From: an uncultured Collinsella sp.
GTDB lineage: Bacteria; Actinomycetota; Coriobacteriia; Coriobacteriales; Coriobacteriaceae
Length of the DNA stretch: 22,003 bases
NCBI GenBank assembly: GCA_934654795.1
Contig: CAKUGT010000026.1
Span: 1-22,003, forward strand
Direction of reading: 5' to 3'
Position 1 is the stretch's first letter. Each line of letters opens with the position of its first letter. Made by a program: the position numbers and the translations under genes. A model generated the notes under the pieces. The model made no database searches and was not told the origin of the DNA. It was given only the letters and a program-made list of their open reading frames with translations. Shown here one piece after another: positions 4,203 to 22,003 of this stretch.

Positions 4203-4224
4203 GCCCGCCGTTTCCAACCCCCCG

Positions 4225-4740: not shown

Positions 4741-4765
4741 GTTCGCCTCCCCACAGGCACGCTCG

Positions 4766-4796
4766 TTGGCCCAATCGTACCCATTCAGGCTATACT
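4766..4796 (+). promoter_or_regulatory. Probable thiC promoter
   Basis: TTGGCC at 4766-4771 and TATACT at 4791-4796 are separated by 19 bases, slightly long for a housekeeping promoter. The predicted transcription start (about 4802-4804) falls just before the first stem of the TPP riboswitch, which is what the arrangement requires. Confidence 0.5.
4774..4779 (-). promoter_or_regulatory. Possible -10 box for the gene at 4225-4740
   Basis: On the minus strand this reads TACGAT within TGGGTACGAT, 34 bases upstream of the ATG. The same TACGAT hexamer appears in the two extended -10 candidates at 1837 and 10830. No -35 was identified. Confidence 0.3.
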
Positions 4797-4810
4797 TGAG
4801 CCCATGACAT

Positions 4811-4907
4811 AACGGGGAGCTTGCAGGACAAGACGGCAGGCTGAGACTGGGCGCGCCCGCCCTGACCCGCAAACCTGATATGGGTAATGCCAACGAAGGG
4901 AGCCGTG
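4811..4907 (+). promoter_or_regulatory. TPP riboswitch (THI element) controlling thiC
   Basis: The conserved TPP aptamer core is present in order: GGGGAGC (4814-4820), GGCTGAGA (4839-4846), GACCC (4864-4868), ACCTGAT (4873-4879), TGGGTAATGCC (4881-4891) and GAAGGGAG (4895-4902). ACGG (4812-4815) can pair with CCGT (4903-4906) to close the P1 helix. The P3 arm carries an extra GC-rich stretch around 4848-4860. The ribosome binding site AAGGGAG (4896-4902) is part of the aptamer's conserved 3' end, and there is no terminator hairpin with a U-run before the start codon. Thiamine pyrophosphate binding should therefore block translation initiation directly. Confidence 0.96.
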
Positions 4908-4910
4908 CCA

Positions 4911-6245
4911 ATGAGCACACAGACCGAGCCCAAGCTCGTCACGCAAATCGACTTCGCCCGTGCCGGGCAGATTACGCCGCAGATGAAGGAGGTTGCCGAG
5001 CGCGAGCATCGCGACCCCGAGTACATCCGCGAGCGCGTGGCCGACGGCCGCATCGCCATCCCCGCCAACATCGTGCATATCAAAAAGGGCATGCGCGCCT
5101 TTGGTGTCGGCGAGGGCCTGTCCACCAAGGTCAACGTCAACCTAGGCATCTCGGGCGATAAGGCCGATGCCGCCGAGGAATGGAAGAAGGTCAAAATCGC
5201 CGAGGACTTTGGCGCCGACGCCATCATGGACCTTTCCAACTCGGGCAAGACGCGCCAGTTTCGCCAGCAGCTCATCGACGAGACACCGCTTATGGTGGGC
5301 ACCGTCCCCATGTACGACGCCATCGGCTATATGGAAAAGCCGCTGGTCAAGCTTACCAAGGATGACCTGTTCGAGGTCGTGCGCGCGCACGCCGAGGACG
5401 GCGTGGACTTTATGACCATCCACTGCGGCATCAACAAGTCGGTCACCAAGACCTTTAAGGAGACCGGCCGTCTCATGAACATCGTCAGCCGCGGCGGCTC
5501 GCTGCTGTTTGGCTGGATGGAGGTCACCGGCAACGAAAACCCCTTCTACGAGTACTTTGACGAGCTGCTCGAGATTTGCCACGAGTACGACGTGACGATT
5601 TCGCTCGGCGACTCCTGCCGCCCGGGCTGCCTCTACGACTCCAACGATGCCACCGAGACCGCTGAGATGATCGAGCTGGGCAAGCTGTGCAAGCGCGCTT
5701 GGGCCGCCGGCGTCCAGGTCATGGTCGAGGGCCCGGGTCACATGGCGCTCGACGAGATCGCCGCCAACATGAAACTGCAGAAGCGCCTGTGCCACAATGC
5801 CCCGTTCTATGTGCTCGGGCCGCTGGTGACCGATATCGGCGTGGGTTACGACCACATCACCGCTGCCATCGGCGGCGCCATCTCCGCCAGCTCCGGTGCC
5901 GACTTCCTGTGCTACGTGACGCCGGCCGAGCACCTGTGCCTGCCCAACGCCCAGGACGTGCTCGATGGCCTCATGGCCACTAAGATTGCCGCGCACGCCG
6001 CCGATATCGCCAAGAAGGTGCCGCACGCCCGCGATATGGACGACAAGATGGGCCAGGCACGCCGCAAGCTCGACTGGGATGCCATGTGGAAGTGTGCTCT
6101 CGACCCGGTCACCGGCAAGAAACGCTACGAAGAATCCCCCGCCGCCACCGAGGGCACCTGCACCATGTGCGGCAAGATGTGCGCCGTCCGCACCGTTAAC
6201 AAGGTGTTCGAAGGCACGACGATCGACCTCGGCATGGAGGACTAG
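4911..6245 (+). CDS. thiC: Phosphomethylpyrimidine synthase ThiC
   Basis: A radical-SAM-type enzyme that converts aminoimidazole ribotide to hydroxymethylpyrimidine phosphate, the pyrimidine half of thiamine. The 444-residue product is the short form lacking the long N-terminal extension of the E. coli protein. Typical stretches are seen: RIAIPAN, NVNLGISGD, DLSNSGK, GTVPMYDA, DGVDFMTIHCGI, SRGGSLLF, DSCRPGC, VMVEGPGHM, GPLVTDIGVGYDHI and GADFLCYVTPAEHL. The iron-sulfur cysteines near the C-terminus are C417, C420 and C424 (CTMCGKMC), a CX2CX3C spacing, one residue shorter than the CX2CX4C of E. coli. The start is ATG 4911, 8 bases after AAGGGAG; the in-frame ATG at 4886-4888 belongs to the riboswitch core and should not be used. 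It is regulated by the TPP riboswitch and followed by thiD 182 bases on. Confidence 0.97.
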   Translation: MSTQTEPKLVTQIDFARAGQITPQMKEVAEREHRDPEYIRERVADGRIAIPANIVHIKKGMRAFGVGEGLSTKVNVNLGISGDKADAAEEWKKVKIAEDFGADAIMDLSNSGKTRQFRQQLIDETPLMVGTVPMYDAIGYMEKPLVKLTKDDLFEVVRAHAEDGVDFMTIHCGINKSVTKTFKETGRLMNIVSRGGSLLFGWMEVTGNENPFYEYFDELLEICHEYDVTISLGDSCRPGCLYDSNDATETAEMIELGKLCKRAWAAGVQVMVEGPGHMALDEIAANMKLQKRLCHNAPFYVLGPLVTDIGVGYDHITAAIGGAISASSGADFLCYVTPAEHLCLPNAQDVLDGLMATKIAAHAADIAKKVPHARDMDDKMGQARRKLDWDAMWKCALDPVTGKKRYEESPAATEGTCTMCGKMCAVRTVNKVFEGTTIDLGMED

Positions 6246-8245: not shown

Positions 8246-9379
8246 TTACAGGTACTTGCGCCAGTCGTCGTCATCCTCGTCATCCTCGGCAGCGGCCTGA
8301 GCCTGCTCGGCGGCACGGGCGGCTGCGGCGCGGGCGGCAACCTGAGCATAGGACTCCTCGTTGCGCTCGGGGAAGTTTGCCAGCACGTGCTCGAACTTGG
8401 CGAAGTCCTCGTCCCAGCGCGTAGAGGGCACGGCAAAGAAGACCTGCTTGACCTTGAAGTCGCCCGATGCGAGTTCCTTGCGGAAGAGCTCGGCCACGGC
8501 CTCGGCATCAATGCCGTTGCTGTCGCAGCCCCATGCGCCCAGCACGAGCTTCTCGCGACCCAACTCGTCGCAGATGGCGAGCACAAAGCGGATGCGGTCG
8601 CGCAGGGCATCCAGCAGAGCATCGTCGCTCACGCGATACTCTTGGCGGGCGCGCTTAACGTTGGGCGCGGCGGCCACGATCACGTCGGCGTATGCATGCA
8701 CGTGGTTGCGGTCGAAGCGCACCGCAGGCACCACCAGGGCGCGGTTACGATAGAGCTCGCAGTTGATGTTGCGGCGACGGTTCTCGCCGTACCACTTACG
8801 CTGCTTATCGAGAACGTTGTACAGATACGAATCGGCGCAGAGCGTCGCCTCCTGACCCAGATAACCCTGAATATAGCCACCGCCCGGGTTGGTGAACGAG
8901 GCAAAGGCGAGCACGGCCATGTCGCAGAACTGCGCATAACCACGACCGTTGTCCAAGATGACCTGCGTGGCGGAGGCATCGAGCACGGTGACCTCGGGCA
9001 GAACCGGAGCGGGCTCCTCAGCAGGCGCGGACTCAGCTTCGGCGATTTCCTCGGCAGGCTCCTCGACGGGCTCGGGCGCTGCCTCGGTCTCGGGCGCTGC
9101 CTCGACCTCGGCAGTCTCCGCGTCCTCGACGTCCTCGGCGACCTGCTCTTCGGGGGCCACAGCAGTCTGAACCTTGGCCTTCATCGCCGCGACAAAGCCG
9201 GCGGGCATGCCGTCAAACTCGCGAACACCGGCAAGCGAACGCTCGATATCCTTGGCGAACGCTTCGGACACAGTCGCCACATGGCGCTCGGCGGCCTTGG
9301 CACGGGCCTCGCGCTTGGGATTGGGCTGACCCGCTCGGTTGGACCTGCGGTTACGGTTCCTGTTGTCGACGTCTGCCAT
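8246..9379 (-). CDS. PARG-like macrodomain protein (TIGR02452/DUF2263 type) with an altered catalytic motif
   Basis: The 377-residue product has three parts. Residues 1-70 are basic at the start (RNRNRRSNR) and then helical. Residues 72-127 form a long Ala/Glu/Pro-rich acidic linker. Residues 128-345 form a macrodomain resembling bacterial poly(ADP-ribose) glycohydrolases, and an acidic tail (EDDEDDDD) ends the protein. Macrodomain signs are NPGGGYIQGYLGQEATLC (165-181), YLYNVLDKQRKWYG, ALVVPAVRFDR, ADVIVAAAPN (231-240) and LVLGAWGCDSNG. The family signature is GGG-X6-8-QEE, with the second glutamate catalytic in the Thermomonospora curvata enzyme; here the motif reads Q176-E177-A178. The protein may therefore bind ADP-ribose without cleaving it, or use another residue. 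ATG 9379 has AAAGGTGA upstream. It is a single gene with its own terminator. Confidence 0.88.
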   Translation of the reverse strand: MADVDNRNRNRRSNRAGQPNPKREARAKAAERHVATVSEAFAKDIERSLAGVREFDGMPAGFVAAMKAKVQTAVAPEEQVAEDVEDAETAEVEAAPETEAAPEPVEEPAEEIAEAESAPAEEPAPVLPEVTVLDASATQVILDNGRGYAQFCDMAVLAFASFTNPGGGYIQGYLGQEATLCADSYLYNVLDKQRKWYGENRRRNINCELYRNRALVVPAVRFDRNHVHAYADVIVAAAPNVKRARQEYRVSDDALLDALRDRIRFVLAICDELGREKLVLGAWGCDSNGIDAEAVAELFRKELASGDFKVKQVFFAVPSTRWDEDFAKFEHVLANFPERNEESYAQVAARAAAARAAEQAQAAAEDDEDDDDWRKYL

Positions 9380-10835: not shown

Positions 10836-10882
10836 TTATCATGTTTCTGTAACGTGCCTGCAAACTTCGAGAAAGCCCATAT

Positions 10883-11932
10883 ATGGACGTAACGTTCTCA
10901 ACCTTCCTCGGCCAACTTGTGTCGAACCCAGTCCTTGCCGTCACCGTGATCCTCGCGCTCGGCGCCATCTTCGTCAATGGATGGACCGACGCACCCAACG
11001 CCATCGCAACCTGCGTCACTACGCGTTGCATGCCCGCCCGCGCCGCCATCCTCATGAGCGCCGCATTCAACTTCTTGGGCGTGCTCATCATGACGCACTT
11101 TAACGCAAGCGTCGCCAACACCATCTCCCATATTGTCGACTTTGGCGGAAACAGCACCATGGCGCTCGCCTGCCTGTGCGCGGCGCTGTTCTCCATCGTC
11201 GTCTACGGCGCCACAGCATCGCGTTTTGGCATCCCCACCTCGCAAAGCCACAGCCTTATCGCCGGCCTGACCGGTGCCGCCATCGCCCTCGGCGGTGCGA
11301 GCAGCGTCAACGTCCACGAATGGATGAAGGTCATCTACGGCCTGGCGCTCTCCATCGGCCTGGGCTTTGTCATGGGCTGGGTCCTGTGCAAGCTCGTCTC
11401 GATTCTTTTCGCCGCCGCCAACAGGCGACGTGCCAATGTCTTCTTTAAATACGCTCAGATCGCGAGCGCTGCGGCCATGAGCTTTATGCACGGCGCGCAG
11501 GATGGACAGAAGTTCATCGGCGTGCTCTTTTTAGGCGTGGCCTTTGCCAGCGGCCAGACGAGCGTCGGCGATGCCGGCATCCCCATCTGGATCATGCTAC
11601 TATGCTCGGCCACTATGGGTATCGGCACCAGCGTGGGCGGCGAGCGCATCATCAAGTCCGTCGGCCAGAGCATGGTTAAGCTCGAGAAATATCAGGGCTT
11701 CTCTGCCGACCTCGCAGGCGCCGCAAATCTGCTGCTTGCCACGCTCACCGGCATCCCCGTGTCCTCCACTCACATCAAGACCTGCGCCATCATGGGCGTC
11801 GGCGCCGTCAAGCGCCTCTCGGCCATCAACTTCGGTGTCGTCAAGGACATGATGTTCACCTGGTTCTTCACCTTCCCCGCCTGTGGACTCATCAGCTTTG
11901 TCATGGCCAAGCTGTTCATGATGTTCCTCTAG
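10883..11932 (+). CDS. PiT family inorganic phosphate transporter
   Basis: A low-affinity, ion-coupled inorganic phosphate permease of the inner membrane. The 349-residue product has about ten hydrophobic segments. The two inverted PiT signature repeats are seen: GWTDAPNAIATCVTTR (33-48), corresponding to the GANDVANA motif, and later SFMHGAQDGQKFIGVLFLG. Each half also has its serine-rich loop, GIPTSQSHSLIAGLTGA (116-132) and GIPVSSTHIKTCAIMGVGA. The ATG at 10883 has only a weak ribosome site (GAGAAAG), but the N-terminus fits the family and no better start exists. DUF47 follows 67 bases downstream, the usual partner arrangement, so the two are likely one operon. PiT systems normally serve phosphate-replete growth and complement the Pst system at 17225-20714. 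Confidence 0.95.
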   Translation: MDVTFSTFLGQLVSNPVLAVTVILALGAIFVNGWTDAPNAIATCVTTRCMPARAAILMSAAFNFLGVLIMTHFNASVANTISHIVDFGGNSTMALACLCAALFSIVVYGATASRFGIPTSQSHSLIAGLTGAAIALGGASSVNVHEWMKVIYGLALSIGLGFVMGWVLCKLVSILFAAANRRRANVFFKYAQIASAAAMSFMHGAQDGQKFIGVLFLGVAFASGQTSVGDAGIPIWIMLLCSATMGIGTSVGGERIIKSVGQSMVKLEKYQGFSADLAGAANLLLATLTGIPVSSTHIKTCAIMGVGAVKRLSAINFGVVKDMMFTWFFTFPACGLISFVMAKLFMMFL

Positions 11933-11999
11933 TCAAACCGAGCGTCCATCTGGACCGTAATACTCCGCCCACCCGTCTTCGCCTCGAAAGGACCCACTC

Positions 12000-12623
12000 A
12001 TGGCAAAGAAACCCGATTCGTTCTACTTTGACAACTACGTCGCTTGCGCCGACCTTGCCGTCCAGGCCGCCGAGCTGCTCACCAAGATTTTCGAGAACTT
12101 CGATCCCATGCAAATCCATGACATGCTCGATAAGATGCACGCAATTGAGCATGCGGCCGATAAGAAGCACCATGAGCTCGAAGACGCCCTGCTCACCGCC
12201 TTTATCACCCCACTTGAGCGCGAGGACCTGGACCTGATGAGCTGCTCACTCGACACTGTGCTCGACCGTATCGAGGGCGTCGTGCAGCGCGTCTACTTCA
12301 CCAACATCCAGAGCATCCATCCCGACGCCATCGTCATCGCCCACAAGGTGACCGACGCTTGCCGCGCTATGAAGGACCTGATGGTCGAGCTGCCTAACTA
12401 CCGCAAGTCCAAGACCCTGCGCGAGCTGGTCATCCAGATCAACACCATCGAGTCCGAGGCCGACGAGCTCTATATCAACGCCATGCGCAACCTGCACGTC
12501 AACGGCAAGGATCCGCTCGAGGTCATCGCCTGGCGTGACGTGTATGCCTTCCTGGAGTACTGTGCCGACTGCTGCGAGAATGTGGCTGATGTTGTGGATT
12601 CGATTGTGATGAAGAACAGTTAA
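12000..12623 (+). CDS. DUF47 family PhoU-like protein (PiT accessory protein)
   Basis: A cytosolic all-helical protein of the PhoU-like DUF47 family (207 residues, normal length), encoded next to PiT transporters in many bacteria and thought to regulate or couple to them. The family start FYFDNYVACADLAVQAAELL (about residues 8-27) and the metal-ligand-like helices HAIEHAADKKHHELEDALL, FITPLEREDLDLMSCSLDTVLDRIEGV and INTIESEADELYINAMRNL are clear, as is the last helix DVYAFLEYCADCCENVADVVDSIVMK. ATG 12000 is preceded by GAAAGGA. It is the second gene of the PiT operon. Its stop codon overlaps the beginning of an 88-bp tandem repeat, so the hairpin at 12715-12826 may form in the 3' end of this transcript. 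Confidence 0.94.
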   Translation: MAKKPDSFYFDNYVACADLAVQAAELLTKIFENFDPMQIHDMLDKMHAIEHAADKKHHELEDALLTAFITPLEREDLDLMSCSLDTVLDRIEGVVQRVYFTNIQSIHPDAIVIAHKVTDACRAMKDLMVELPNYRKSKTLRELVIQINTIESEADELYINAMRNLHVNGKDPLEVIAWRDVYAFLEYCADCCENVADVVDSIVMKNS

Positions 12624-12988: not shown

Positions 12989-13519
12989 ATGTCTTATTTG
13001 GATCTGGCTCGCGCTCGGTATTCTTGTCGTTCGTTTGAGTCGCGTCCTGTTGAGCAGGCGGTGGTTGATGCTGTTGTTGAGGCCGGGCGCATTGCTCCTT
13101 CTGCTTGTAATAATCATCCGACCCGTGTGATGGTGCTGGATACTCCTGAGTTGTTGGAGAAGGCTGCTGCTTGTCAGCCGCGGTTTGCTCGCGATGGGTC
13201 TATCTTTGGGGCTCCGCTTATTTTTCTGATCTGCAGCGTTACCGACGATGCTTGGGTGCGTCCGTATGACCAGATGAGCTCCAGTACTATCGATACCTCC
13301 ATTGTGTGCGATCAGATGATGATGGAGGCTACCGAGCAGGGTCTGGGGACGTGCTGGGTGTGCCATTTTAAGCCTGAGGTGGCACAAGAGCAGTTCGACC
13401 TGCCCGAGGGCGTCTACCCCTATCACATGCTCGTCTGCGGCTATCCCGCCGACCATATTGCCGACCCCGAGCATCGCAAGGCCCGTACCATTCCCCTCCC
13501 CGACTTCCTCATCAAGTAG
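12989..13519 (+). CDS. Nitroreductase family protein (FMN-dependent)
   Basis: A predicted FMN-dependent NAD(P)H oxidoreductase of the small nitroreductase family (176 residues). Features are the N-terminal ARARYSCRSFESRPVE (7-22), with the family's S-x-R-x-F FMN-binding signature, the PSACNNHP segment (37-44), the core helix ATEQGLGTCWVCHF and the late MLVCGYPAD. Substrates are unknown; such enzymes reduce nitro compounds, quinones or enones. TTGGAGGG precedes ATG 12989 by 5 bases. Codon use is odd: about the first 250 bases favour T-ending codons (GCT, CGT, TGT, GTT, GAT), unlike every other gene here, whereas the last 140 bases return to the C-ending codons typical of the window. This suggests a mosaic origin by recombination. 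It shares a bidirectional terminator with divIVA. Confidence 0.92.
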   Translation: MSYLDLARARYSCRSFESRPVEQAVVDAVVEAGRIAPSACNNHPTRVMVLDTPELLEKAAACQPRFARDGSIFGAPLIFLICSVTDDAWVRPYDQMSSSTIDTSIVCDQMMMEATEQGLGTCWVCHFKPEVAQEQFDLPEGVYPYHMLVCGYPADHIADPEHRKARTIPLPDFLIK

Positions 13520-13537
13520 TTTTTTGGGACATGCAAT

Positions 13538-13570
13538 AAAAAAGGACCCGCAACTTGCGGGTCCTTTTTT
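13538..13570. terminator. Bidirectional intrinsic terminator between the nitroreductase and divIVA genes
   Basis: A perfect palindrome: AAAAAAGGACCCGCAA, one central base, then its complement ending in TTTTTT. The 10-bp GC-rich stem has U-runs on both strands, so it can end the nitroreductase transcript (plus) and the division operon (minus). It starts 18 bases after the nitroreductase stop and 22 bases beyond the divIVA stop. Confidence 0.95.
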
Positions 13571-13592
13571 ATCGACTGATTGTAATCCGGCG

Positions 13593-14270
13593 TTAGTCCA
13601 GGTCGTCAGCGGCGAAGTTGTCGATCGGGGCAAAGGGATCGGCCACGGGGACAACCGGATCGGCGACGGGCAGGGGCTCGGCGGCAGGGACGGTCACAGC
13701 CGGAGAAGCGGCGGAACCAACCGGCGTGGAGGCCATGAGGTCGGCCGGGAAGGAGTTCTGGGCATCATCCATGAAGTGCTGGATGAGCTTGAGGTACTCG
13801 GCCTTGAACTCCTCGCGGGAAGCCTTGAGACGATCGATTTCCTCGAGCTCGGCCTGCTTCTCGGTCAGAGCCTGGCGGATAACCTCGCGGGCCTTAGCGT
13901 CAGCCTCGTTGCGGATACGCTCAGCGTTCTCGTTGGCATCGTTGACGATGGTCTCAGCGGTCTGCTGGGCAGCGATCAGGGCAGCGGAAATCTGGCGCTC
14001 CTGGGCAGTGAAGTCGGGGGCGGGGGCAGCCACAGGGGCAGCGGGGACGGCCTGGGCGGCAGCGTCCTGAGCCTGGGCAAGCTGAGCCTGCGCATCGGCA
14101 AGCTGCTGCTCGGTGGCGGTCAAGCGACCCTTAAGGTCGACAATCTTGGCGAGCATAGCATCAACCTCGGAGGACAGCGTCTCCAAGAAGACGTCGACCT
14201 CGGCGGGGTCGTAGCCGCGCTTGGCCTCAGAGAAAGTCTGAGCCTGGATGTCAGCAGGGGTAATAGCCAT
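13593..14270 (-). CDS. divIVA: DivIVA family cell-division / polar-growth protein
   Basis: A cytoplasmic coiled-coil protein that binds curved membrane at poles and septa and recruits division or wall-growth factors. The 225-residue product opens with the DivIVA lipid-binding domain (ITPADIQAQTFSEAKRGYD, then PAEVDVFLETL, residues 3-32), followed by coiled coils (about 34-70 and 88-165) separated by an Ala/Pro stretch (73-86), and ends in a Pro/Ala/Val/Asp-rich disordered tail containing the repeat PVADPVVPVADPF. ATG 14270 has AAAGGAG 9 bases upstream. It is the last gene of a minus-strand operon with yggS, sepF and yggT, the standard Gram-positive order, and is followed by the bidirectional terminator. 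Confidence 0.93.
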   Translation of the reverse strand: MAITPADIQAQTFSEAKRGYDPAEVDVFLETLSSEVDAMLAKIVDLKGRLTATEQQLADAQAQLAQAQDAAAQAVPAAPVAAPAPDFTAQERQISAALIAAQQTAETIVNDANENAERIRNEADAKAREVIRQALTEKQAELEEIDRLKASREEFKAEYLKLIQHFMDDAQNSFPADLMASTPVGSAASPAVTVPAAEPLPVADPVVPVADPFAPIDNFAADDLD

Positions 14271-14331
14271 AACATGTCTCCTTTATCATCGCCTCGGCGC
14301 CATACGCCCGACGTAAGTTACTGAGTCAGTT

Positions 14332-14613
14332 CTATACGAGTATACCTATAAGAAGCTGCAGAACCAGCCTCTGCACCAACTGCAACGCAATAATCGCAAT
14401 GACCGGCGAAAAATCGACGCCACCCATCGGAGGAATAAACCGACGGAATAGGTTGAGCCACGGACCGCACACGCTATCGAGCACCGCAGCGATATCCTGG
14501 AGCAAGCCGCCTTGCTTCATGGGGATCCACGTCATAAGGCAGTAGACCACAATAAGTGTGGAATAGAAGTTAAACAGCGTGTTGACCAGCTGGACGATAG
14601 TGTAGATGTTGAT
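14332..14613 (-). CDS. yggT: YggT (YlmG) family membrane protein, start codon non-canonical or unresolved
   Basis: A small membrane protein of the YggT/YlmG family, linked to division-site or membrane-complex organisation in bacteria and plastids. The frame gives INIYTIVQLVNTLFNFYSTL then IVVYCLMTWIPM (first hydrophobic helix), a hydrophilic LLQDIAAVLDSVCGPWLNLFRRFIPPMGGVDFSP middle with the family's P-x-x-x-x-F-R-x-x-P signature, and a second helix ending LLIGILV. The only canonical starts in frame are GTG 14550 and ATG 14535, both of which would delete most of the first helix. A good Shine-Dalgarno sequence GAGGAG (14620-14625) lies 6 bases before ATC 14613, directly after the sepF stop codon, so initiation at ATC, or ATT at 14619, is likely; a base error is the alternative. 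From 14613 the product is 93 residues, normal for the family. Confidence 0.85.
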   Translation of the reverse strand: MNIYTIVQLVNTLFNFYSTLIVVYCLMTWIPMKQGGLLQDIAAVLDSVCGPWLNLFRRFIPPMGGVDFSPVIAIIALQLVQRLVLQLLIGILV

Positions 14614-14634
14614 GAGAATCTCCTCGTCTTGTCT

Positions 14635-15357
14635 TTACTTAAGGTAGCCGTCGGCACGGAGTTTCTTCAGGTCCGAGTCCTTAACCTCGCAACCGGCGGG
14701 CAGCACCATGAACACGCGGTCGCCTACCTCCTTGACCGTGGCGCCCAGACCGCAGGCAAAGCCGTAAGAGAAGTCCAAGACGCGCTTGGCAACTTCGGTG
14801 CGTACGCCCACAAAAATCAGTGCGACAGGCTGCTTGGTGCGAACGCGGCGCACCACAGTCTCCACGTCGTCATAGCTCTCGGGACGCAGAACATAAGCCG
14901 GCAGCTGCGGCGTGGCGTTGATGATATTGCTCGCATAGGCCGAGGCGTCGCTCGGTGCAGGCGCGGGCGCAGCGGCGGCACGGGCGCGGGTGTTCTCGGC
15001 GTAACTCGACGGCGTGTCATAGGCACCAGGACGATAACCGCTCGCAACGCTGTCCTGCGAGCGCGAAGGCGGGTTATACGTCGTGGCATGGCGGGAGTCA
15101 TCGCCAACGAGCTGGCCGGAACGCGTATACACGGCAACCGACTCAGCTTCACCACGGCGCGTCTGCCCCAGCAAGCCATTGCTCGGCTCGTCTTGGGTGT
15201 AGAAGCCCTCGCCCGAAGCACCGCTGTAGCCGTTGCCCTGATAACCATCGTCATAGCCGTCATCGTAGCCGTAGTCGTCGTCCTGGCCATAACCCTGGTC
15301 GTAACCCTGCTGGCCGCCCAGGTGCATCTTATTTTTAATCTCGTCAAGGAAGCCCAT
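14635..15357 (-). CDS. sepF: Cell division protein SepF
   Basis: The FtsZ membrane anchor and bundling protein, acting at the division septum. The 240-residue product has the three SepF parts: a short amphipathic membrane-targeting helix (MGFLDEIKNKMHLGG, residues 1-15), a long low-complexity linker (about 16-150, first Gly/Tyr/Asp-rich with repeated DDGY/QGY units, then Ser/Ala/Pro-rich), and the C-terminal SepF domain (154-240) with the VLRPESYDDVETVV start, the LIFVGV strand, RVLDFSYGFACGLGATVKEV and the VFMVLPAG strand. The linker is longer than in Bacillus (SepF about 150 residues), similar to actinobacterial forms. ATG 15357 has AGAGGA upstream and places the targeting helix at the N-terminus; the longer frame to 15408 is not used. 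It lies 60 bases after yggS and 21 bases before yggT. Confidence 0.95.
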   Translation of the reverse strand: MGFLDEIKNKMHLGGQQGYDQGYGQDDDYGYDDGYDDGYQGNGYSGASGEGFYTQDEPSNGLLGQTRRGEAESVAVYTRSGQLVGDDSRHATTYNPPSRSQDSVASGYRPGAYDTPSSYAENTRARAAAAPAPAPSDASAYASNIINATPQLPAYVLRPESYDDVETVVRRVRTKQPVALIFVGVRTEVAKRVLDFSYGFACGLGATVKEVGDRVFMVLPAGCEVKDSDLKKLRADGYLK

Positions 15358-15417
15358 GGTTGTGTCCTCTCGCGGTTTAGTGCAGGCGCCCCGATAATCA
15401 GTGCGCACTTCAGAGCC

Positions 15418-16155
15418 TTATTTTACTGCAAACTCCGGGCTAAATACTACCCTGCCCAGGCGAACGAGCGTAGAGCCCTCCTCAAGGGCAGGCTCAAAGT
15501 CCTCGCTCATCCCGCAGGAAAGCTCAGGCAGGTTCAAATCGGGATGCGCCGCCTCCAGCTCATCCCTCAGCCCGCGTAGCCCGGCAAAGGTGCGGCGTGC
15601 CACATCCTTATTCCCCCGGGGCGCCATAGTCATAAGCCCCTGCACGCAAATTCCCTCGAGCTCCGCAAGCTCACCCGCGGCGGCGCGAATCTCATCGGGC
15701 GAAAAGCCTCCCTTCGACTCCTCACCACTCACATTGACCTCAATGAGCACGCGCTGGGGGCCGGCGAGCTCGCCTGCCTCAATCTTGCGGACAGCACGGC
15801 TCGAGATCGCCTGTGCAAGATGCAGCGAACCCACCGAGTGAATCAGCTCGGCTGAGCCCAGCACCGCATTGATCTTATTGGTCTGCAGGTTGCCGATCAT
15901 ATCGAAGCGCACCTCGGGCAGCTCCGGATGCTCAGCCAGACCCGTAAGCTTGCGAACCAGCTCCTGCGGGCGGTTCTCGGCAAAATGGCGATACCCCGCC
16001 TGGATGGCAGCAACAGTCTCATCGACACCAACGGTCTTGGACACGGCAATGAGGCGCGCGGCGTCGTGGGGGCGGCCCGCGTGATCGAGCGCCGCATAAA
16101 AACGTTCCAGAATCTGCTCGCGGCGAGCGCGCATCAAGTCCAAATAGTTATCCAT
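15418..16155 (-). CDS. yggS: YggS/YlmE family PLP homeostasis protein
   Basis: A cytosolic pyridoxal-phosphate-binding protein (COG0325) with a TIM-barrel fold like the N-terminal domain of alanine racemase. It is not known to catalyse a reaction but keeps vitamin B6 and amino acid pools balanced. The 245-residue product shows AVSKTVG with the PLP-binding K40, FAENRPQEL, RFDMIGNLQTNK (the usual HxIGxLQxNK, with F-D-M for the usual W-H-F), VLIEVNVSGEESKGGF, GLMTMAP, and the C-terminal LSCGMSEDFEPALEEGSTLVRLGR (usual LSMGMSxDxxxAI). ATG 16155 has GGAGG 9 bases upstream. In Gram-positive bacteria this gene (ylmE) sits between ylmD and sepF; here ylmD lies 4.5 kb away, on the far side of the pst-phoU genes. 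Confidence 0.95.
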   Translation of the reverse strand: MDNYLDLMRARREQILERFYAALDHAGRPHDAARLIAVSKTVGVDETVAAIQAGYRHFAENRPQELVRKLTGLAEHPELPEVRFDMIGNLQTNKINAVLGSAELIHSVGSLHLAQAISSRAVRKIEAGELAGPQRVLIEVNVSGEESKGGFSPDEIRAAAGELAELEGICVQGLMTMAPRGNKDVARRTFAGLRGLRDELEAAHPDLNLPELSCGMSEDFEPALEEGSTLVRLGRVVFSPEFAVK

Positions 16156-16205
16156 TGCTAATCGCCTCCGCTGACAGCCAAACAAGTAGTCCCATGCTAA
16201 CGCAA

Positions 16206-16237
16206 GAGCGCGGCCCCGCATGTGCAAGGCCGCGCTC
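16206..16237 (-). terminator. GC-rich hairpin between phoU and yggS
   Basis: GAGCGCGGCC (16206-16215) and GGCCGCGCTC (16228-16237) form a perfect 10-bp stem with a 12-base loop. On the minus strand the following bases TTGCGTT are only weakly T-rich. It may end the pst-phoU transcript partly or completely before the yggS-sepF-yggT-divIVA genes. Confidence 0.55.
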
Positions 16238-16274
16238 ACTTAGGTATTTACAATCTTTCGACGAACGGGGCTAC

Positions 16275-17132
16275 TTACTCCTCGTCGTCCTCGCCATCGT
16301 CCTCGTCCTCAAGATGATCGAGCAGGTAGCGAAGACCCTCGCTGACCTCGTTAACGGGCACCTTGGCAACGTAGCGCGCGTCGACGGCGGGCCTCATGAT
16401 AACGCCCTCGCCCGAAGGCACGCGCATGCTCTCGAGCTCATCCTCGTCCACACGGGCAATATCGCCGGCGTTCATACGCTGACCAGTCAACAGGAAGGTC
16501 AGACGGCAAGCGGCATCGATGGAAATCGAAGCGATGCGATCGAGGTAGCGCGAAACCATGATGGCGCGGCGCAGGTCGTCATAGTTGCTATCGTCGTCCA
16601 TAAAGTCGCCCGTATCCATACGGTTAAAGGTGCGGAAGAACTTCTCGTAGGCGGCGTGCACCGGCTCGTCCTCGACGGCCAGGTTGCAGATGATGGACAT
16701 GTCATTGGTGACGAGCGCAGAAAGCGAAGAGCCCAGCACCTGGTAGACGGCCTCAGCCTCGGCCTCGACCGTGCCGACAAGCTCCTTGGGCAGCGAGATG
16801 TCGGCCTTGATCATATGACGCGTGGCACGGCAGATCTGACGGACCTTATCGGTCATGCGCTGCAGGTTAAAGTCGACGTAGATGATCGTCTGAAGCAGGC
16901 GGAAGTCGGAGGCGACCGGTGACTGCGTGGCGATCAGGTTGTAGCAGACGGCCTCCAGGTTGGCGCAGCGCGCGTCAATCGAAAGCGTGCGCTTCTTGGT
17001 CTTGGTGGCGAGCTTGCGGTCGTCGGTCACATAGGCCTTCACGGCATCGTGGAGGGCCAGATCGACGGCCTCGTAGATGCTCAGCATCTCGTGACGGGCC
17101 TCGATGAGCTGACGGGAAAACAGTTTGCGCAT
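16275..17132 (-). CDS. phoU: Phosphate signalling complex protein PhoU
   Basis: A cytosolic helical protein that links the PstSCAB transporter to the phosphate-sensing kinase and damps phosphate uptake. The product shows two PhoU half repeats with helix pairs such as DDRKLATKTKKRTLSIDARCANLEAVCYNLIATQSPVASDFRLLQ (about 37-82) and the second-repeat MVSRYLDRIASISIDAACRL (about 196-215). At 285 residues it is longer than the usual 215-240; the extra 60 or so residues carry a PSGEGVIMRPAVDARYVAKVPVNE segment and an acidic tail (HLEDEDDGEDDEE). ATG 17132 has GGAGTGA upstream. It follows pstB after 92 bases that hold a small imperfect hairpin (17189-17217). No phoR/phoB-type regulator is in the window. 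Confidence 0.93.
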   Translation of the reverse strand: MRKLFSRQLIEARHEMLSIYEAVDLALHDAVKAYVTDDRKLATKTKKRTLSIDARCANLEAVCYNLIATQSPVASDFRLLQTIIYVDFNLQRMTDKVRQICRATRHMIKADISLPKELVGTVEAEAEAVYQVLGSSLSALVTNDMSIICNLAVEDEPVHAAYEKFFRTFNRMDTGDFMDDDSNYDDLRRAIMVSRYLDRIASISIDAACRLTFLLTGQRMNAGDIARVDEDELESMRVPSGEGVIMRPAVDARYVAKVPVNEVSEGLRYLLDHLEDEDDGEDDEE

Positions 17133-17188
17133 GGTTCACTCCAATCAGTTGGGTGCGGTCATGCCGCCCGCACAGTGAATACGCACCG

Positions 17189-17217
17189 GACTAGGTCCGA
17201 TCGGTTTGGGACTAGTC
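17189..17217 (-). promoter_or_regulatory. Imperfect hairpin between pstB and phoU
   Basis: GACTAGGTCC (17189-17198) and GGGACTAGTC (17208-17217) can pair with a one-base bulge. It lies in the 92-base gap between pstB and phoU and has no T-run, so it is more likely a transcript-processing or stability element than a terminator. Confidence 0.3.
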
Positions 17218-17224
17218 GCACCGA

Positions 17225-18028
<804 letters not shown>

Positions 18029-18040
18029 GGGACTCCTTAA

Positions 18041-18946
18041 CTAGCGACGCTTGCGCGACAGGAAGCGCGCAAACAGGTTGAAGGCCAGAATGATCACCAT
18101 CAGCAAGAGCGCGGTGCCGTAGGCTGCGTTCATGTTGATGCCGTCGTTTGCAAGCAGGTACAGGTGAACCGTCATGGGGCGGCCGGAATCGAGCGGCGAA
18201 ATAGGTAGATTGATGGCTTGGCCCATGGTGTAGAGCACCACCGCGGTCTCGCCAATGGCACGGCCGATGGCGAGGACGATGCCCGTGGCAATACGGCCAA
18301 AGGCAGAAGGAAGCACGATCTTGGAGACGACCTGCCACTTGGTGGCGCCCAGGCCGTACGCGCCCCAACGGATATAGCGCGGAACGGCGCGAATGGCCTC
18401 TTCGGTGGTGCGCATGACGATGGGAAGCATCAAGAGCGCGAGTGCCAGAGCGGCCGAGACCATCGAAAGGCCCAGACCCATGGCCTCGACAAACAAGGCG
18501 TAGCCAAACAGGCCCATAACGATAGAGGGCACCGAGGCCAAAGCGTCAGCAGCGTAGCGAATGAGCTCGACGACCTTGCCCTGCTTGGCGTACTCGGCCA
18601 GATAGACGGCTGCCAGCACAGCAATCGGCGTGCAGATAAGCATGGCGAGCGCCGTCACATAGACGGTCGAGACGATCGTGGGCCAAATTCCGCCCTCGGC
18701 GTTGACGCCCTGGGGCCAACCGAAGATAAAGTCGAGCGAGATATGCGGCAGGCCGTTAATGACCACATATGCGATGATAGCGACCAGCACTAGCGTGGTG
18801 ATATAGGCAGCCGCGCGGAATACGCCGAGCATGATCTTGTTGGACAAGTCCTTGTTGATGCGGCCCTTCTTGCCGTGGGAAAGGGCACGCTTGATGCGCT
18901 CGCGCGACGAGGTCGTATCGACCGTCGTGTCAACGGAATCGGACAT
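18041..18946 (-). CDS. pstA: Phosphate ABC transporter permease PstA
   Basis: One of the two membrane subunits of the phosphate importer. The 301-residue product has a hydrophilic N-terminus of about 45 residues, then about six membrane helices. The cytoplasmic EAA loop is clear: EEAIRAVPRYIRWGAYGLGATKWQ leading into VVSKIVLPSAFGRIATG, followed by the AIGRAIGETA motif shared with PstC. The GGIWPTIVSTVYVTALAMLICTPIAV segment near residue 90 is a PstA/PstC hallmark. The start ATG 18946 is 3 bases after the pstC stop codon, so translation is probably coupled. Confidence 0.96.
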   Translation of the reverse strand: MSDSVDTTVDTTSSRERIKRALSHGKKGRINKDLSNKIMLGVFRAAAYITTLVLVAIIAYVVINGLPHISLDFIFGWPQGVNAEGGIWPTIVSTVYVTALAMLICTPIAVLAAVYLAEYAKQGKVVELIRYAADALASVPSIVMGLFGYALFVEAMGLGLSMVSAALALALLMLPIVMRTTEEAIRAVPRYIRWGAYGLGATKWQVVSKIVLPSAFGRIATGIVLAIGRAIGETAVVLYTMGQAINLPISPLDSGRPMTVHLYLLANDGINMNAAYGTALLLMVIILAFNLFARFLSRKRR

Positions 18947-18949
18947 AGC

Positions 18950-19876
18950 CTACCCCCTCTTCTTCTTGGAAATCAGACGGACGACGCCCACCAGCGTGGC
19001 GGAGATGATAAACAGGACCACGCCCATGCCGAACAGCGCCGAGCGGTGCAGACCCGAGGAATAGCTCATGTCGAGCGCGATCTGGCTCGTGAGCGTCGAG
19101 ATGGGGCTCGCAATGCTGTCGGGAATAACCGGGGCGTTACCCACGACCATGAGCACGGCCATGGTCTCGCCGATGGCACGGCCCATACCCAGCACGATGG
19201 CATCCACGATACCCAGCTTGGCGGCAGGTAGCACGACCTTATAGATGGTCTGCCACTTGGTGGCGCCCATGGCATAGGATGCCTCGCGAATGCCCATAGG
19301 GATGGAATTGAGGGCATCGATGGTGAGCGTCGTGATGGTGGGGACGATCATGATGGCAAGCACGAACCATGCCGTCAGCGCACCAAAACCAAGACCACCG
19401 GTCAGCTGCGCGATAAGCGGGCGGATGATGATCATGCCAAAGAAGCCGTAGATAATCGAGGGGATGCCCGCCAGAAGGTCGACGGCGGGGCTGATGAGCT
19501 TGCGCACGCGCTTGCCGGCGATCTCGACCAGATACACGGCCGTGCCCACGCCTAGGGGCACGCCCATGGCAAGTGCGCCGACAGTCACCAAGCCCGAACC
19601 GGCCAGCAGCGACATAATGCCGTAATGTCCCTCGGAAGGCGCCCACGTAAAGCTAAAGAAGTCTGCCAGGCCAATATCGGTAAAGACGGGCAGGGCCGAG
19701 TACGTGGTAAAGACAAAAATCAGGATGACGGTGACGACCGCCAGGAACGCGCAGGCAAAGAAGATCCACTGCAGCGCCTTCTCTTTAAGATAGGTGCTGC
19801 GCGATACCAGTGCCAGCTCACGCTTCTTGGGTGCCTGAGCCGTCTGCTCAGTCTGGGGGCTTTCCTGTGCTTCCAT
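18950..19876 (-). CDS. pstC: Phosphate ABC transporter permease PstC
   Basis: The second membrane subunit of the importer. The 308-residue product starts with a polar stretch (about 1-40) and has about six helices. Typical segments are FFSFTWAPSEGHYGIMSLLAGSGLVT, IPSIIYGFFGM, the EAA loop NSIPMGIREASYAMGATKWQ leading to TIYKVVLPAAKLGIVDA, and GMGRAIGETMAVLMVVGN. ATG 19876 is chosen because it lies one base after the pstS stop codon and has GGGGAG upstream within pstS; the frame is open to 19900 without better support. Together with pstS, pstA and pstB it forms a tightly spaced operon. Confidence 0.96.
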   Translation of the reverse strand: MEAQESPQTEQTAQAPKKRELALVSRSTYLKEKALQWIFFACAFLAVVTVILIFVFTTYSALPVFTDIGLADFFSFTWAPSEGHYGIMSLLAGSGLVTVGALAMGVPLGVGTAVYLVEIAGKRVRKLISPAVDLLAGIPSIIYGFFGMIIIRPLIAQLTGGLGFGALTAWFVLAIMIVPTITTLTIDALNSIPMGIREASYAMGATKWQTIYKVVLPAAKLGIVDAIVLGMGRAIGETMAVLMVVGNAPVIPDSIASPISTLTSQIALDMSYSSGLHRSALFGMGVVLFIISATLVGVVRLISKKKRG

Positions 19877-19877
19877 G

Positions 19878-20714
19878 CTACTCACTCCCCTTCCCGTCAT
19901 TGGTGACGGGAATAAAGCCCGCCTCGCGAATCTGCTTGTCCATCTTCCCGGACGTCACGTAGTCGATGTAATCCTGAGCTTGCTTGGAAGGCGTTCCCTT
20001 CACAAAGAAGTAGAGGTCACGCGAAATGGGGTAGCCGCCGCTTGCAACCGTCTTCTCGGAGGCCTCGACATGATTGACCGAGACGGCCCTGACCGAAGTC
20101 TTGGCGTTGAGGCTCTCGACGAAGCCCAGCGAAATGTAGCCGATGGCCCCACGCGAACGGGACACGACATCACGCACCTGGCCCGTGCCCGAAAGAACGG
20201 CCGAGCGGCGATCGAACGGCGTGCCATCCATCACGATGGTGCGGAAGGCCTCACGCGTGCCGGAAGCCTCGTCGCGGTTGATAACCTGAATCTTCAGGTC
20301 CTCGCCACCGACCTCTTTCCAGTTGGTGATCTTGCCGGCATAGATATCGCGAAGCTGCTCAGTCGAGAGGTTCTCAACAGGGTTGTCCTCATTCACGATG
20401 ACCGCAATACCGTCATGGGCGATAACGATTGGAGTCAGGCCCAGATCCTGTTCGTCGGCATTGAGTCCACGGGAGGAGCTGGCGATATCGGCCGTGCCAG
20501 CGCTGACGGCTTCGATGCCAGCGGAAGAGCCCAAACCGGAAACGAGCACGTCGATGCCGGTCTCCTCCTTAAAGCCCTCTGCCGCAATCTCGGCGATAGG
20601 AAGGCAGGTCGTGGAGCCGGCCACGGTAATGGAAGAGGTAGAAGATCCCGAAGAACAGGCGCACAGCGTAAGCGTAAGCACAGCGGCGCTCAGGACCGAT
20701 ACGATCTTTCTCAT
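19878..20714 (-). CDS. pstS: Phosphate-binding lipoprotein PstS
   Basis: The extracytoplasmic receptor of the high-affinity phosphate importer, tethered to the membrane. Residues 1-19 form a lipoprotein signal (MRKIVSVLSAAVLTLTLCA) with lipid attachment at C20 in LCAC, followed by a Ser-rich linker. The phosphate-binding regions are visible: VAGSTTCLPIAE, SGLGSSAGIEAVSAGTADIA, SSRGLNADE, and the RDEASGTREAF loop. The domain TNWKEVGG and the C-terminal FVKGTPSKQAQDYIDYV also fit. Length (278) is typical of Gram-positive PstS. The ATG at 20714 overlaps the ylmD/yfiH stop codon as ATGA, so pstS is translationally coupled to the preceding gene; no separate promoter is obvious in the overlap. Confidence 0.97.
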   Translation of the reverse strand: MRKIVSVLSAAVLTLTLCACSSGSSTSSITVAGSTTCLPIAEIAAEGFKEETGIDVLVSGLGSSAGIEAVSAGTADIASSSRGLNADEQDLGLTPIVIAHDGIAVIVNEDNPVENLSTEQLRDIYAGKITNWKEVGGEDLKIQVINRDEASGTREAFRTIVMDGTPFDRRSAVLSGTGQVRDVVSRSRGAIGYISLGFVESLNAKTSVRAVSVNHVEASEKTVASGGYPISRDLYFFVKGTPSKQAQDYIDYVTSGKMDKQIREAGFIPVTNDGKGSE

Positions 20715-21511
20715 AGCATCACGCCGATCGCAGCATGGCGCCCACAGGTGCCGTCCTCGTTACGGTAGGAATAAAAGCGATCGTTCTGACGCACAGTCGA
20801 AAGCTGGGTATCCACGATATTATCCGCGTCCACACCGGCATCTACCAGCGCCTCACAAATGGCAGCGGAAAGATCGAGCATGCGAGAGGCACTCGCATCG
20901 ATGCAAGAGAACTCGACGGCAAAGCGATCCATGAGTTCCTGGGATACCTCATATTCGTCAGCCAAGATATGGGGGCCGATATAGGCGGAAACGTCGCTCG
21001 CATCGCAGCCGGCAGCATCGCAAAGCGCCTGGCACGCCTTGGCAGAAATACGTGCAATCGTGCCCTTCCAACCGGAGTGCACCACGGCAAATCCGCCGGG
21101 GGCCACCAGCACCACGGGAACGCAGTCGGCAAAGCAGAGCAGCACGGGCACGTCATGGGCCGTACAGACGATGGCATCGCAGCCCTCGGCAATCTGCTCG
21201 CGAACAGCCTCAAGATCGTCGGCGCCGTTCGAAGTCACCGTAACGATATGGTCACCATGTACCTGATTGGGCACGAGCAGATTATGCTCGCACTCAGTGG
21301 CGCCCATAGCTTCGAGCGCTCGACGACGATTCTCTTGAACAGCAAAGGGGTCATCGCCTACATGCGAGCCCAGGTTGAGCGAGGAGTACGCATCTTCAGA
21401 AACGCCACCGGTGCGCTCGGTAAAGGCAAAGCGGACATCGGATGTCGCGCCCTCCACCAACGTAACTCCATCATGGTCGACACGCGAAACGTTGTCCGCA
21501 CGTGCTGCCAT
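20711..21511 (-). CDS. ylmD: YfiH/YlmD family multicopper-like purine nucleoside phosphorylase
   Basis: A cytosolic zinc enzyme (formerly laccase-domain or PgeF family) with reported purine nucleoside phosphorylase and adenosine deaminase activity in several homologues; in E. coli (YfiH/PgeF) it edits the peptidoglycan intermediate UDP-MurNAc. The 266-residue product shows YSSLNLGSHVGDD (42-54), NQVHGDHI with metal ligand H85, DAIVCTAHDVPVLLCFADCVPV with C130, and FAVVHSGWKGT with H145. The C-terminal RQNDRFYSYRNEDGTCGRHAA is also typical. ATG 21511 has AGGAGG 7 bases upstream. It is preceded by ftsZ and its terminator, the normal Gram-positive neighbour, but is followed by pstS, overlapping it by 4 bases. 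Confidence 0.95.
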   Translation of the reverse strand: MAARADNVSRVDHDGVTLVEGATSDVRFAFTERTGGVSEDAYSSLNLGSHVGDDPFAVQENRRRALEAMGATECEHNLLVPNQVHGDHIVTVTSNGADDLEAVREQIAEGCDAIVCTAHDVPVLLCFADCVPVVLVAPGGFAVVHSGWKGTIARISAKACQALCDAAGCDASDVSAYIGPHILADEYEVSQELMDRFAVEFSCIDASASRMLDLSAAICEALVDAGVDADNIVDTQLSTVRQNDRFYSYRNEDGTCGRHAAIGVML

Positions 21512-21538
21512 ACTAAAGCCTCCTAATAACACAAGTAC

Positions 21539-21553
21539 CGCGGCGTCGCCGCG
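21539..21553 (-). promoter_or_regulatory. GC palindrome in the ylmD leader
   Basis: CGCGGCGTCGCCGCG is a perfect 7+1+7 palindrome, 28 bases upstream of the ylmD start codon. As RNA it could form a tight hairpin close to the ribosome binding site; there is no T-run, so a terminator is unlikely. Confidence 0.4.
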
Positions 21554-21647
21554 CAGTCCGCGTTTATACGGCTGTCATACTTCCTTAAAAGGATACCCGC
21601 AGCGGTAGGGACCAAACGTAAAGGGAACGTAAGGAGATTGGAGGCTT

Positions 21648-21661
21648 TCGTTTACAAACGA
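21648..21661. promoter_or_regulatory. Dyad TCGTTTACAAACGA between ftsZ and ylmD
   Basis: A 14-base perfect dyad (TCGTTT AC AAACGA) just downstream of the ftsZ terminator on the minus strand, upstream of ylmD-pst. It has the look of a protein-binding site (operator), but no promoter boxes could be fixed with confidence around it. Confidence 0.35.
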
Positions 21662-21665
21662 GAAA

Positions 21666-21698
21666 CAAAACGGGGTGCATCCAAATGGACACACCCCG
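21666..21698 (-). terminator. Terminator of ftsZ
   Basis: On the minus strand CGGGGTG and CACCCCG (21671-21698) form a stem, extended by TCC with GGA inside, followed by TTTTG. It lies 24 bases after the ftsZ stop codon and separates ftsZ from ylmD and the pst genes. Confidence 0.8.
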
Positions 21699-21721
21699 TG
21701 CAGGTCGTTGAGAAAAACAAA

Positions 21722-22003
21722 CTAGAAGCTACCGCGCTTCAGGAAGTCGGGAAGCTCGAACTGGTCGTTGCCAAAGTTGGGCAGCTCGGTACCACCGACG
21801 TTGCGGGTCGGAGCGGCCTGAGCCGGGCTGGCAGCCGGAGCGGTGCGCTGCGGCTCAGCGGAGGCAGCGGCCTTGCTCTGAGACTGCTGAGCAGCAAAGA
21901 GCTCGTCCTGACGGTTGACGTTGGAATCGGAGAAGCCCGTAGCGATGACGGTGATACGCACCTGATCGCCCAGGGACTCGTCGACAACGGTACCGAAGAT
22001 GAT
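21722..22003 (-). CDS. ftsZ: Cell division protein FtsZ, C-terminal 93 residues (partial, runs off window end)
   Basis: The tubulin-like GTPase that forms the division ring. The visible part begins at IIFGTVVDESLGDQVRITVIATGF, the highly conserved end of the FtsZ C-terminal domain, followed by a disordered Ala/Ser/Gln/Pro-rich linker of about 45 residues and the conserved C-terminal peptide ELPDFLKRGSF, the docking site for partners such as SepF, which is encoded 6 kb downstream on the same strand. The GTP-binding domain lies outside the window. It ends in its own terminator and heads the division cluster. Confidence 0.95.
   Translation of the reverse strand: MIFGTVVDESLGDQVRITVIATGFSDSNVNRQDELFAAQQSQSKAAASAEPQRTAPAASPAQAAPTRNVGGTELPNFGNDQFELPDFLKRGSF

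Follow-up and report, generated by a model that had tools for sequence, protein, structure and literature searches.

The phosphate-uptake operon inside the Coriobacteriia division gene cluster: probable ancestral linkage, repeated loss and a putative phosphate switch

The window considered here is a stretch of 22,003 nucleotides from an uncultured Collinsella sp. (assembly GCA_934654795.1, contig CAKUGT010000026.1), on whose minus strand a phosphate-uptake operon, pstSCAB-phoU, lies between the division-cluster genes ylmD and ylmE. Comparison with related genomes points to the ylmD-pstSCAB-phoU block as a probable ancestral component of the division cluster of Coriobacteriia and some sister lineages, inherited vertically and repeatedly lost in Coriobacteriales, with a putative phosphate-responsive (Pho) switch before ylmD and a predicted restart of transcription at ylmE-sepF. 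Judged by its nearest relatives, the window comes from the Collinsella aerofaciens group (family Coriobacteriaceae, order Coriobacteriales, class Coriobacteriia).

Gene order in the window and its spread across the class

Read in the direction of transcription, the minus strand carries the end of ftsZ, ylmD (pgeF), pstS, pstC, pstA, pstB, phoU, ylmE, sepF, ylmG and divIVA, an order first proposed by a sequence-only reading of this DNA and confirmed by profile searches. The six division-cluster genes are thus co-directional and in order, and pstSCAB-phoU parts ylmD from ylmE. PstS (19878-20714; TIGR02136, 245.5 bits against a cut-off of 206.6), PstC (18950-19876; TIGR02138, 271.5 against 196.45), PstA (18041-18946; TIGR00974, 277.2 against 193.45) and PstB (17225-18028; TIGR00972, 377 against 343.2) all exceed the curated NCBIfam cut-offs. 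The phoU product (16275-17132) misses the curated equivalog cut-off (TIGR02135, 89.9 against 130.25 bits) and passes PF01895 (53.7 bits), and it is therefore filed as a PhoU-domain protein, one that probably works as PhoU. YlmD (20711-21511) is above the cut-off of PF02578 (218.9 bits) and below that of TIGR00726 (123.6 against 141.15).

The junctions are tight, as had been claimed: on recomputation, ylmD and pstS overlap by 4 nt (ATGA, as read in the sequence), and gaps of 1 nt (pstS-pstC), 3 nt (pstC-pstA), 12 nt (pstA-pstB) and 92 nt (pstB-phoU) follow, with 119 nt between phoU and ylmE and 60 nt between ylmE and sepF. The same order is found, within contig reach, in 20 Collinsella loci from isolates and metagenome-assembled genomes (L031-L050; YlmD 87-100 % identical; L039 and L042 begin at ylmD, and L043 stops after pstC), so the arrangement is no assembly artefact.

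Searches with the window PstC and YlmD were extended to 159 genomes of the class. Close relatives of the window PstC (56-98 % identical, hereafter type A) occur in 91 of them, and in at least 80 of these 91 ylmD lies upstream on the same contig and strand, with 0.76-2.2 kb between the two matches. Among the matches listed, the linkage covers 18 of the 20 families having type A pstC. By family label, type A is present in 14/27 genomes of f1 (the family of the window's nearest genome), 7/26 of f5, 0/23 of f2 and 70/83 of the remaining genomes, f1, f2 and f5 together making up the whole order in the sample. Fetched loci that reach far enough mostly carry the complete series ftsZ, ylmD, pstSCAB, phoU, ylmE, sepF, ylmG, divIVA; the exceptions are L094 and L098, where no full ylmD directly precedes pst, and L097 and L098 have no recognised sepF to divIVA genes. 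The gene-order comparison around ftsZ, ylmD and sepF that the sequence-only reading had suggested thus finds, in the sampled genomes, a linkage widespread in the class. Furthermore, a phylum survey (236 genomes, of which about 215 fall outside the class) revealed the ylmD-pst pair in at least five outside genomes (G183, G198, G212, G395 and G345), with the same gene order and with ftsZ upstream in three of the five.

Some peculiarities of individual lineages deserve mention. In several f5 genomes (L068, L099, L106-L109) the pstC frame extends to 654-861 amino acids and pstA continues within it, likely a PstC-PstA fusion to judge from the frames. An opposite-strand frame of 184-334 amino acids stands between ftsZ and ylmD in L080-L083, L088, L092, L093, L095 and L113, which belong to several families outside the order; some of these predicted products are membrane-like or proline-rich. 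In L094, the pst locus of genome G087, a short ylmD-like frame (8652-8915, in pst orientation; 37 % over 90 columns) overlaps pstS and is likely a remnant of the ancestral ylmD-pst junction.

Descent of the block and its losses

The Pst proteins themselves suggest a long common history with their neighbours. In 39 loci (37 linked to ylmD, together with L094 and L098) PstSCAB group as a single clade that excludes other pst operons and the type-B Pst, a second operon situated away from the division cluster whose PstC is 37-39 % identical (support of 99 by the Shimodaira-Hasegawa-like approximate likelihood ratio test, SH-aLRT). A tree of FtsZ, YlmD, YlmE and MurC built for the 37 ylmD-linked loci has 23 of 34 splits in common with the Pst tree of those loci, where 500 shuffles of the tips give at most 2, and the patristic distances of the two trees correlate with r = 0.917; strongly supported splits recur in the other tree in 20 of 26 cases for Pst and 17 of 19 for the division genes. 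These trees come from quick searches with SH-aLRT support only, some rows being without half of the division-gene columns; the C. aerofaciens group is represented by L031, L044 and L046 only, and L090 (on a short contig, and also omitted from the gap counts given below) and the contig-end loci L110, L114, L115 and L116 were left out. Since the Pst tree largely tracks that of the division genes, the block would have been inherited vertically.

Several observations weigh against such a simple history. The division-gene tree contradicts two deep and strongly supported splits of the Pst tree, and shuffling tips leaves some causes of tree agreement uncontrolled. Moreover, 11 of the 91 type-A genomes are without the ylmD link among the matches listed: they include the contig ends G129, G168 and G133, as well as G131, G137 and G087, and in family f13 five of seven genomes are unlinked among those matches, for which contig ends offer no explanation.

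Within the window's family, losses are common. Outside the C. aerofaciens group, 21 fetched f1 loci comprise three with pst (L056, from C. intestinalis, with the order phoU-pstSCAB-phoU, L066 and L105), 15 with phoU alone and three with neither (L061, L119 and L136). The solo phoU sits between ylmD and ylmE in 15 of the 21, in L065 after a 2-kb stretch. As for the two phoU genes flanking pstSCAB in C. intestinalis (L056, genome G006), the sister genome G016 retains the ortholog of the second one only.

This pattern bears on the possibility that pst was a recent insertion in Collinsella, which the sequence-only reading had entertained as a lineage-specific event. In its favour, 15 of the 21 family loci just described have phoU without pst and three have neither, and in the fetched loci from the order's other families, leaving aside those f5 loci that bear pst, ylmD adjoins ylmE within contig reach. 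Nevertheless, the slot is occupied in 18 of the 20 class families with type A pstC (among the matches listed) and in at least five genomes outside the class, the Pst and division-gene trees agree, and where pst is gone a phoU of the same clade still occupies the slot. We regard a recent insertion as extremely improbable, and reject it on the strength of the class-wide order. The classical gene order seen in sister lineages within Coriobacteriales is most readily understood as a secondary loss that left the solo phoU as a relic.

A search for PhoU domains in 22 genomes gives an idea of what becomes of phoU when the local transporter disappears. A single PhoU gene, located in the division slot, was found in G001, G021, G082, G017, G018, G023, G054 and G084; G006 has two in the slot, G112 has two, G145, G036, G150 and G139 have one elsewhere, and none was detected by this search in G022, G177, G154 and G078. 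No phoU was recognised beside type-B pst in the five loci examined (L100-L104). Thus, loss of the local Pst tends to leave PhoU beside the division genes, and in such genomes the slot gene, often the sole PhoU gene present, would probably work with the second Pst located elsewhere.

Spacer elements and the putative phosphate switch

Between ftsZ and ylmD the window contains an intrinsic terminator (21670-21699, minus strand; a 13-pair stem, a 4-nt loop and a T-rich tail), whose stem and tail can be made out by eye when the 11 distinct spacers of the C. aerofaciens group are aligned. A terminator of this strength implies that the pst block is not simply on the ftsZ transcript, and plain co-transcription with ftsZ is unlikely in the window. 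Of six f5 loci, four have a ylmD that overlaps ftsZ or directly adjoins it (-8 to -1 nt).

Downstream of the terminator lies a Pho-box-like direct repeat, CCTTACG-TTCC-CTTTACG (21617-21634, minus strand), first spotted as TTACGTTCCCTTTACGTT by reading the spacer and the sole match of CYTTACRNNNNCYTTACR without mismatch in the window. Its consensus, CYTKACR-N4-CYTKACR, an 11-bp repeat, is matched exactly in all 11 distinct C. aerofaciens-group spacers (from 21 loci), and each of five relatives holds only four exact genome-wide matches of CYTKACRNNNNCYTKACR, the window site being one of them. Two half-sites at 11-bp spacing are therefore found upstream of phosphate genes, as in a Pho promoter. 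A candidate -10 box, TATCCT (21590-21595, minus strand; 4/6 to TATAAT), may complete the promoter: GGTATCCTTTT, 20-21 nt past the repeat, does not vary among the 11 distinct spacers. A scan of 13400-22003 for canonical sigma-70 consensus sites yielded nothing before ylmD or phoU, and one site inside pstC (shuffles give 3.1).

Similar sites precede phosphate genes in relatives. GTAA-N7-GTAA occurs upstream of type-B pstS in 9/12 genomes (0.08 expected) and the box consensus within one mismatch upstream of type-B pst in 8/12; the gaps between ylmD and the solo phoU contain the box within one mismatch in 13/15 cases, nine of them exact, and TA[CG]A[CG]T follows 8-10 nt past the box in 13 of 14 plus-strand solo-phoU sites. 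Less circular are whole-genome scans, which in 16 genomes give 47 exact matches against six for the backward pattern. In 16 division loci, all 15 exact matches adjoin either phoU (nine) or the gene of a PiT-type phosphate transporter (six; in L063 the box falls within an over-long PiT frame). The five C. aerofaciens-group genomes have four exact sites each, alike by their letters, with surroundings read in G001 only. There, one site precedes ylmD-pst, and another stands before an extra pstB (above cut-off) that has PhoB-like and PhoR/PnpS-like genes behind it. The four exact sites of G017 fall, by position, at type-B pst, the solo phoU, PiT and a pstB-response-regulator pair.

From the sites before ylmD-pst and before relatives' phosphate genes, it is probable that the division cluster of this family contains a promoter responding to phosphate starvation. 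Co-transcription of ylmD with pst, which the sequence-only reading had advanced, accordingly gains in plausibility, as predicted transcription from a phosphate-controlled promoter at 21617-21634. A regulator of the PhoB/PhoP type would bind the repeat after the ftsZ terminator in the window's family, and under low phosphate would switch on ylmD-pstSCAB, possibly with phoU. Transcription would then end or be attenuated at a conserved stem-loop past phoU, and ylmE-sepF would restart from a promoter of its own; where pst has been lost, the solo phoU in the slot would stand under a Pho-box-like promoter.

A number of results count against this phosphate promoter. The consensus was shaped partly on the counted sites, and the window letters had been seen first, so that the shuffle figures overstate. 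Spacing differs, the putative -10 lying 20-21 nt from the box in the window group and 8-10 nt at the solo phoU. In E. coli the Pho box stands about 10 nt before the -10. No exact box was found by whole-genome scan in three of the 16 genomes (G006, G021 and G177), nor before ylmD in the pst-bearing Coriobacteriaceae L056, L066 and L105; in the division loci of these three, exact boxes are absent from L056 and L066, and in L105 one occurs solely before PiT. Outside the C. aerofaciens group, only 3/35 regions upstream of ylmD have a site within two mismatches (1.4 expected), and we therefore confine the Pho-box component of the model to Coriobacteriaceae. Only two of the four exact G001 sites are near phosphate genes, the others being before a phosphofructokinase gene and between an Mg-ATPase gene and a pyrE-like gene. 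Finally, PhoB was not found above its curated cut-off in any of 13 genomes searched: the regulator behind the box in L178 (6492-7244), a locus of the nearest genome, has PhoB as its best NCBIfam match at 215.7 bits, below the cut-off of 296.2, and the kinase beside it best matches PnpS, then PhoR, all below cut-offs.

The repeat could instead belong to another OmpR-type regulator and not to the phosphate regulator. The response regulators below the PhoB cut-off in 13/13 genomes and the two G001 sites at genes for phosphofructokinase and Mg-ATPase/pyrE would fit such an assignment; against it stand the phosphate-related company of all four G017 sites and the G001 site before the extra pstB with its PhoB-like and PhoR/PnpS-like genes. 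We judge it quite unlikely, and retain a phosphate regulator as the preferred candidate.

Further phosphate genes deserve a word. In the nearest genome, the extra pstB and the PhoB-like and PhoR/PnpS-like genes (L178:5561-8672) stand behind a Pho-box-like site, with a VanR-like regulator and a kinase just upstream of this operon (3513-5472), and L181 has pstB and a response regulator placed likewise. Still in the nearest genome, the second pst operon (L100) shows neither the 7-4-7 pattern of the window within three mismatches nor GTAA-N7-GTAA, and its best box site has three mismatches. In the window itself, just past divIVA, a plus-strand unit (10883-12623) comprises a PiT-type phosphate transporter gene (10883-11932; best NCBIfam match PitA, 111.6 bits, below the cut-off of 800) and a DUF47/PhoU-like partner (12000-12623; TIGR00153, 37.8 bits, below the cut-off of 104.3, the name being partly positional), a neighbourhood that recurs in many fetched Coriobacteriaceae loci. 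Exact Pho-box-like sites precede PiT in L057, L060, L105, L118, L134 and probably L063; upstream of the window PiT there is only a site with three mismatches (10848-10865).

The phoU-ylmE boundary deserves separate consideration, since the sequence-only reading had supposed that read-through past the phoU hairpin would reach ylmE-sepF. A conserved stem-loop (16206-16237, minus strand; spacer fold z -2.69), insulator- or terminator-like and without a U-tract, occupies the phoU-ylmE spacer; when 20 Coriobacteriaceae spacers are aligned, 11 of its 13 pairs prove to have changed on both sides with the pairing kept. The stem-loop is followed by TAGCAT (16194-16199, minus strand), a TAnnAT element that would be the -10 of a separate ylmE-sepF promoter and whose T, A, A and T are invariant in all 20. 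The two elements together (16194-16237) could also be read as a terminator, an insulator or an operator. In L066 and L105 the stem is not formed at that place, and T-tailed terminators follow phoU.

Outside the order the layout is different. In 21 class loci (gene starts chosen by script), the pstB-phoU gap is 43-140 nt, phoU-ylmE spans -4 to 16 nt in 19/21, and ylmE-sepF 19-46 nt in 17/17. A -10 box (at least 5/6 to TATAAT) is present in the pstB-phoU gap in 19 of these 21; over all loci tested the figure is 19/30 against 4.5 expected, with none in f1 or f5. Pho-box-like sites within two mismatches occur in 0/29 pstB-phoU gaps (L031, L044 and L046 are left out of the counts behind 19/30, 0/29 and the 3/35 given above). 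The nearness of phoU to ylmE and the -10 box before it imply that phoU, not pst, is tied to ylmE-sepF there; by this arrangement, phoU seems to belong with ylmE-sepF and pst with ylmD.

Could transcripts that start at the Pho promoter and continue through phoU to ylmE-sepF nonetheless let phosphate status set the amounts of SepF and YlmE? The window stem-loop has no U-tract, so that leakage into ylmE is possible; the short phoU-ylmE and ylmE-sepF distances outside the order, and the f5 loci where ylmD overlaps or abuts ftsZ, would also suit such a path. The covarying stem-loop and the invariant -10-like box in 20 spacers, the T-tailed terminators of L066 and L105 and the 0/29 result tell against it. 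We consider it unlikely; read-through is doubtful in the window's family, and the claim that division proteins are regulated in this way is weakened there. A restart at ylmE thus remains the favoured, if conditional, model.

A further reading accepts the old linkage and denies it any role: the region of division and cell wall genes (dcw) resists rearrangement, and pst would stay there by inertia. The frequent losses within the order make the neighbourhood look dispensable, and the -10 before phoU in 19/30 loci, together with the terminator after ftsZ, suggests little transcription in common with ftsZ or sepF. Yet the ylmD-pstS junction measures -121 to +77 nt in 21/21 class loci outside the order, tighter than mere co-location, and Pho-box-like sites precede the solo phoU. 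Idle linkage is to us a real possibility, if the less likely one, and we favour a functional pairing in which ylmD is the steadily coupled gene.

Relation to known systems and biological meaning

The genes flanking the block are those of a familiar series. In Gram-positive bacteria the ylm-sepF-divIVA order after ftsZ is widespread, and pstSCAB-phoU is an operon of the Pho regulon in E. coli and others. The window has the same five genes in the same order as E. coli, with a Pho-box-like 11-bp repeat upstream in its lineage; unlike in E. coli, the operon is led by ylmD and forms part of the division cluster, and in class loci from beyond the order phoU stands near ylmE-sepF, with 43-140 nt between it and pstB. 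The type-B pst of Collinsella (L100-L104) likewise comprises pstSCAB, with repeats upstream in 9/12 genomes, but differs by its location outside the division cluster, its divergent PstC and the absence of a recognisable phoU nearby in five loci.

As reported earlier, Streptomyces carries ylmD-ylmE-sepF-ylmG-divIVA after ftsZ, the same genes and order without pstSCAB-phoU and with ylmD next to ftsZ, and in Streptomyces coelicolor deletion of ylmE, and less so of ylmD, disturbs sporulation division (PMC5943314). The window differs from that cluster by pstSCAB-phoU between ylmD and ylmE and by the terminator between ftsZ and ylmD. Among the titles and beginnings of abstracts listed, subscription papers lying outside the scope, none dealt with pst within the Coriobacteriia division cluster.

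A metabolic reason for the pairing may be proposed. Another study reports activities on purine nucleosides for the bacterial proteins YlmD and YfiH, whose human homologue FAMIN cleaves adenosine using phosphate (PMC6978800). Phosphate-dependent purine-nucleoside chemistry is thus a plausible reason for the ylmD-pst association, and we propose that phosphate supply may matter for YlmD here.

A bolder view would see an ancient phosphate-division superlocus, where the Pho promoter and the nearness of PhoU to ylmE and sepF couple septum formation or wall editing to the supply of phosphate, PhoU, often the sole one of its genome, linking the Pst sensor to the division genes. We hold it conceivable and rather doubtful.

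As to the window's remaining cluster genes, all on the minus strand, ylmE (15418-16155; YggS family, TIGR00044) and divIVA (13593-14270; TIGR03544) are above cut-off, and sepF (14635-15357) and ylmG (14332-14610; YGGT family) match PF04472 and PF02325, respectively. The C-terminal part of ftsZ (21722-22003) runs off the window and, because only this end is included, scores below the FtsZ_C cut-off (PF12327, 4.6e-05, 24.1 bits against 27); a complete ftsZ is present in the related locus L031. Rfam and tRNA searches of the window gave no match.

How bacterial division is coupled to nutrient supply is an open question, and here much of a class has retained, within its division cluster, an importer with a predicted starvation switch. 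The natural deletions found in close relatives, which keep a solo phoU or no phoU at all, constitute ready-made controls, so that a link between phosphate and division would be testable in culturable gut bacteria.

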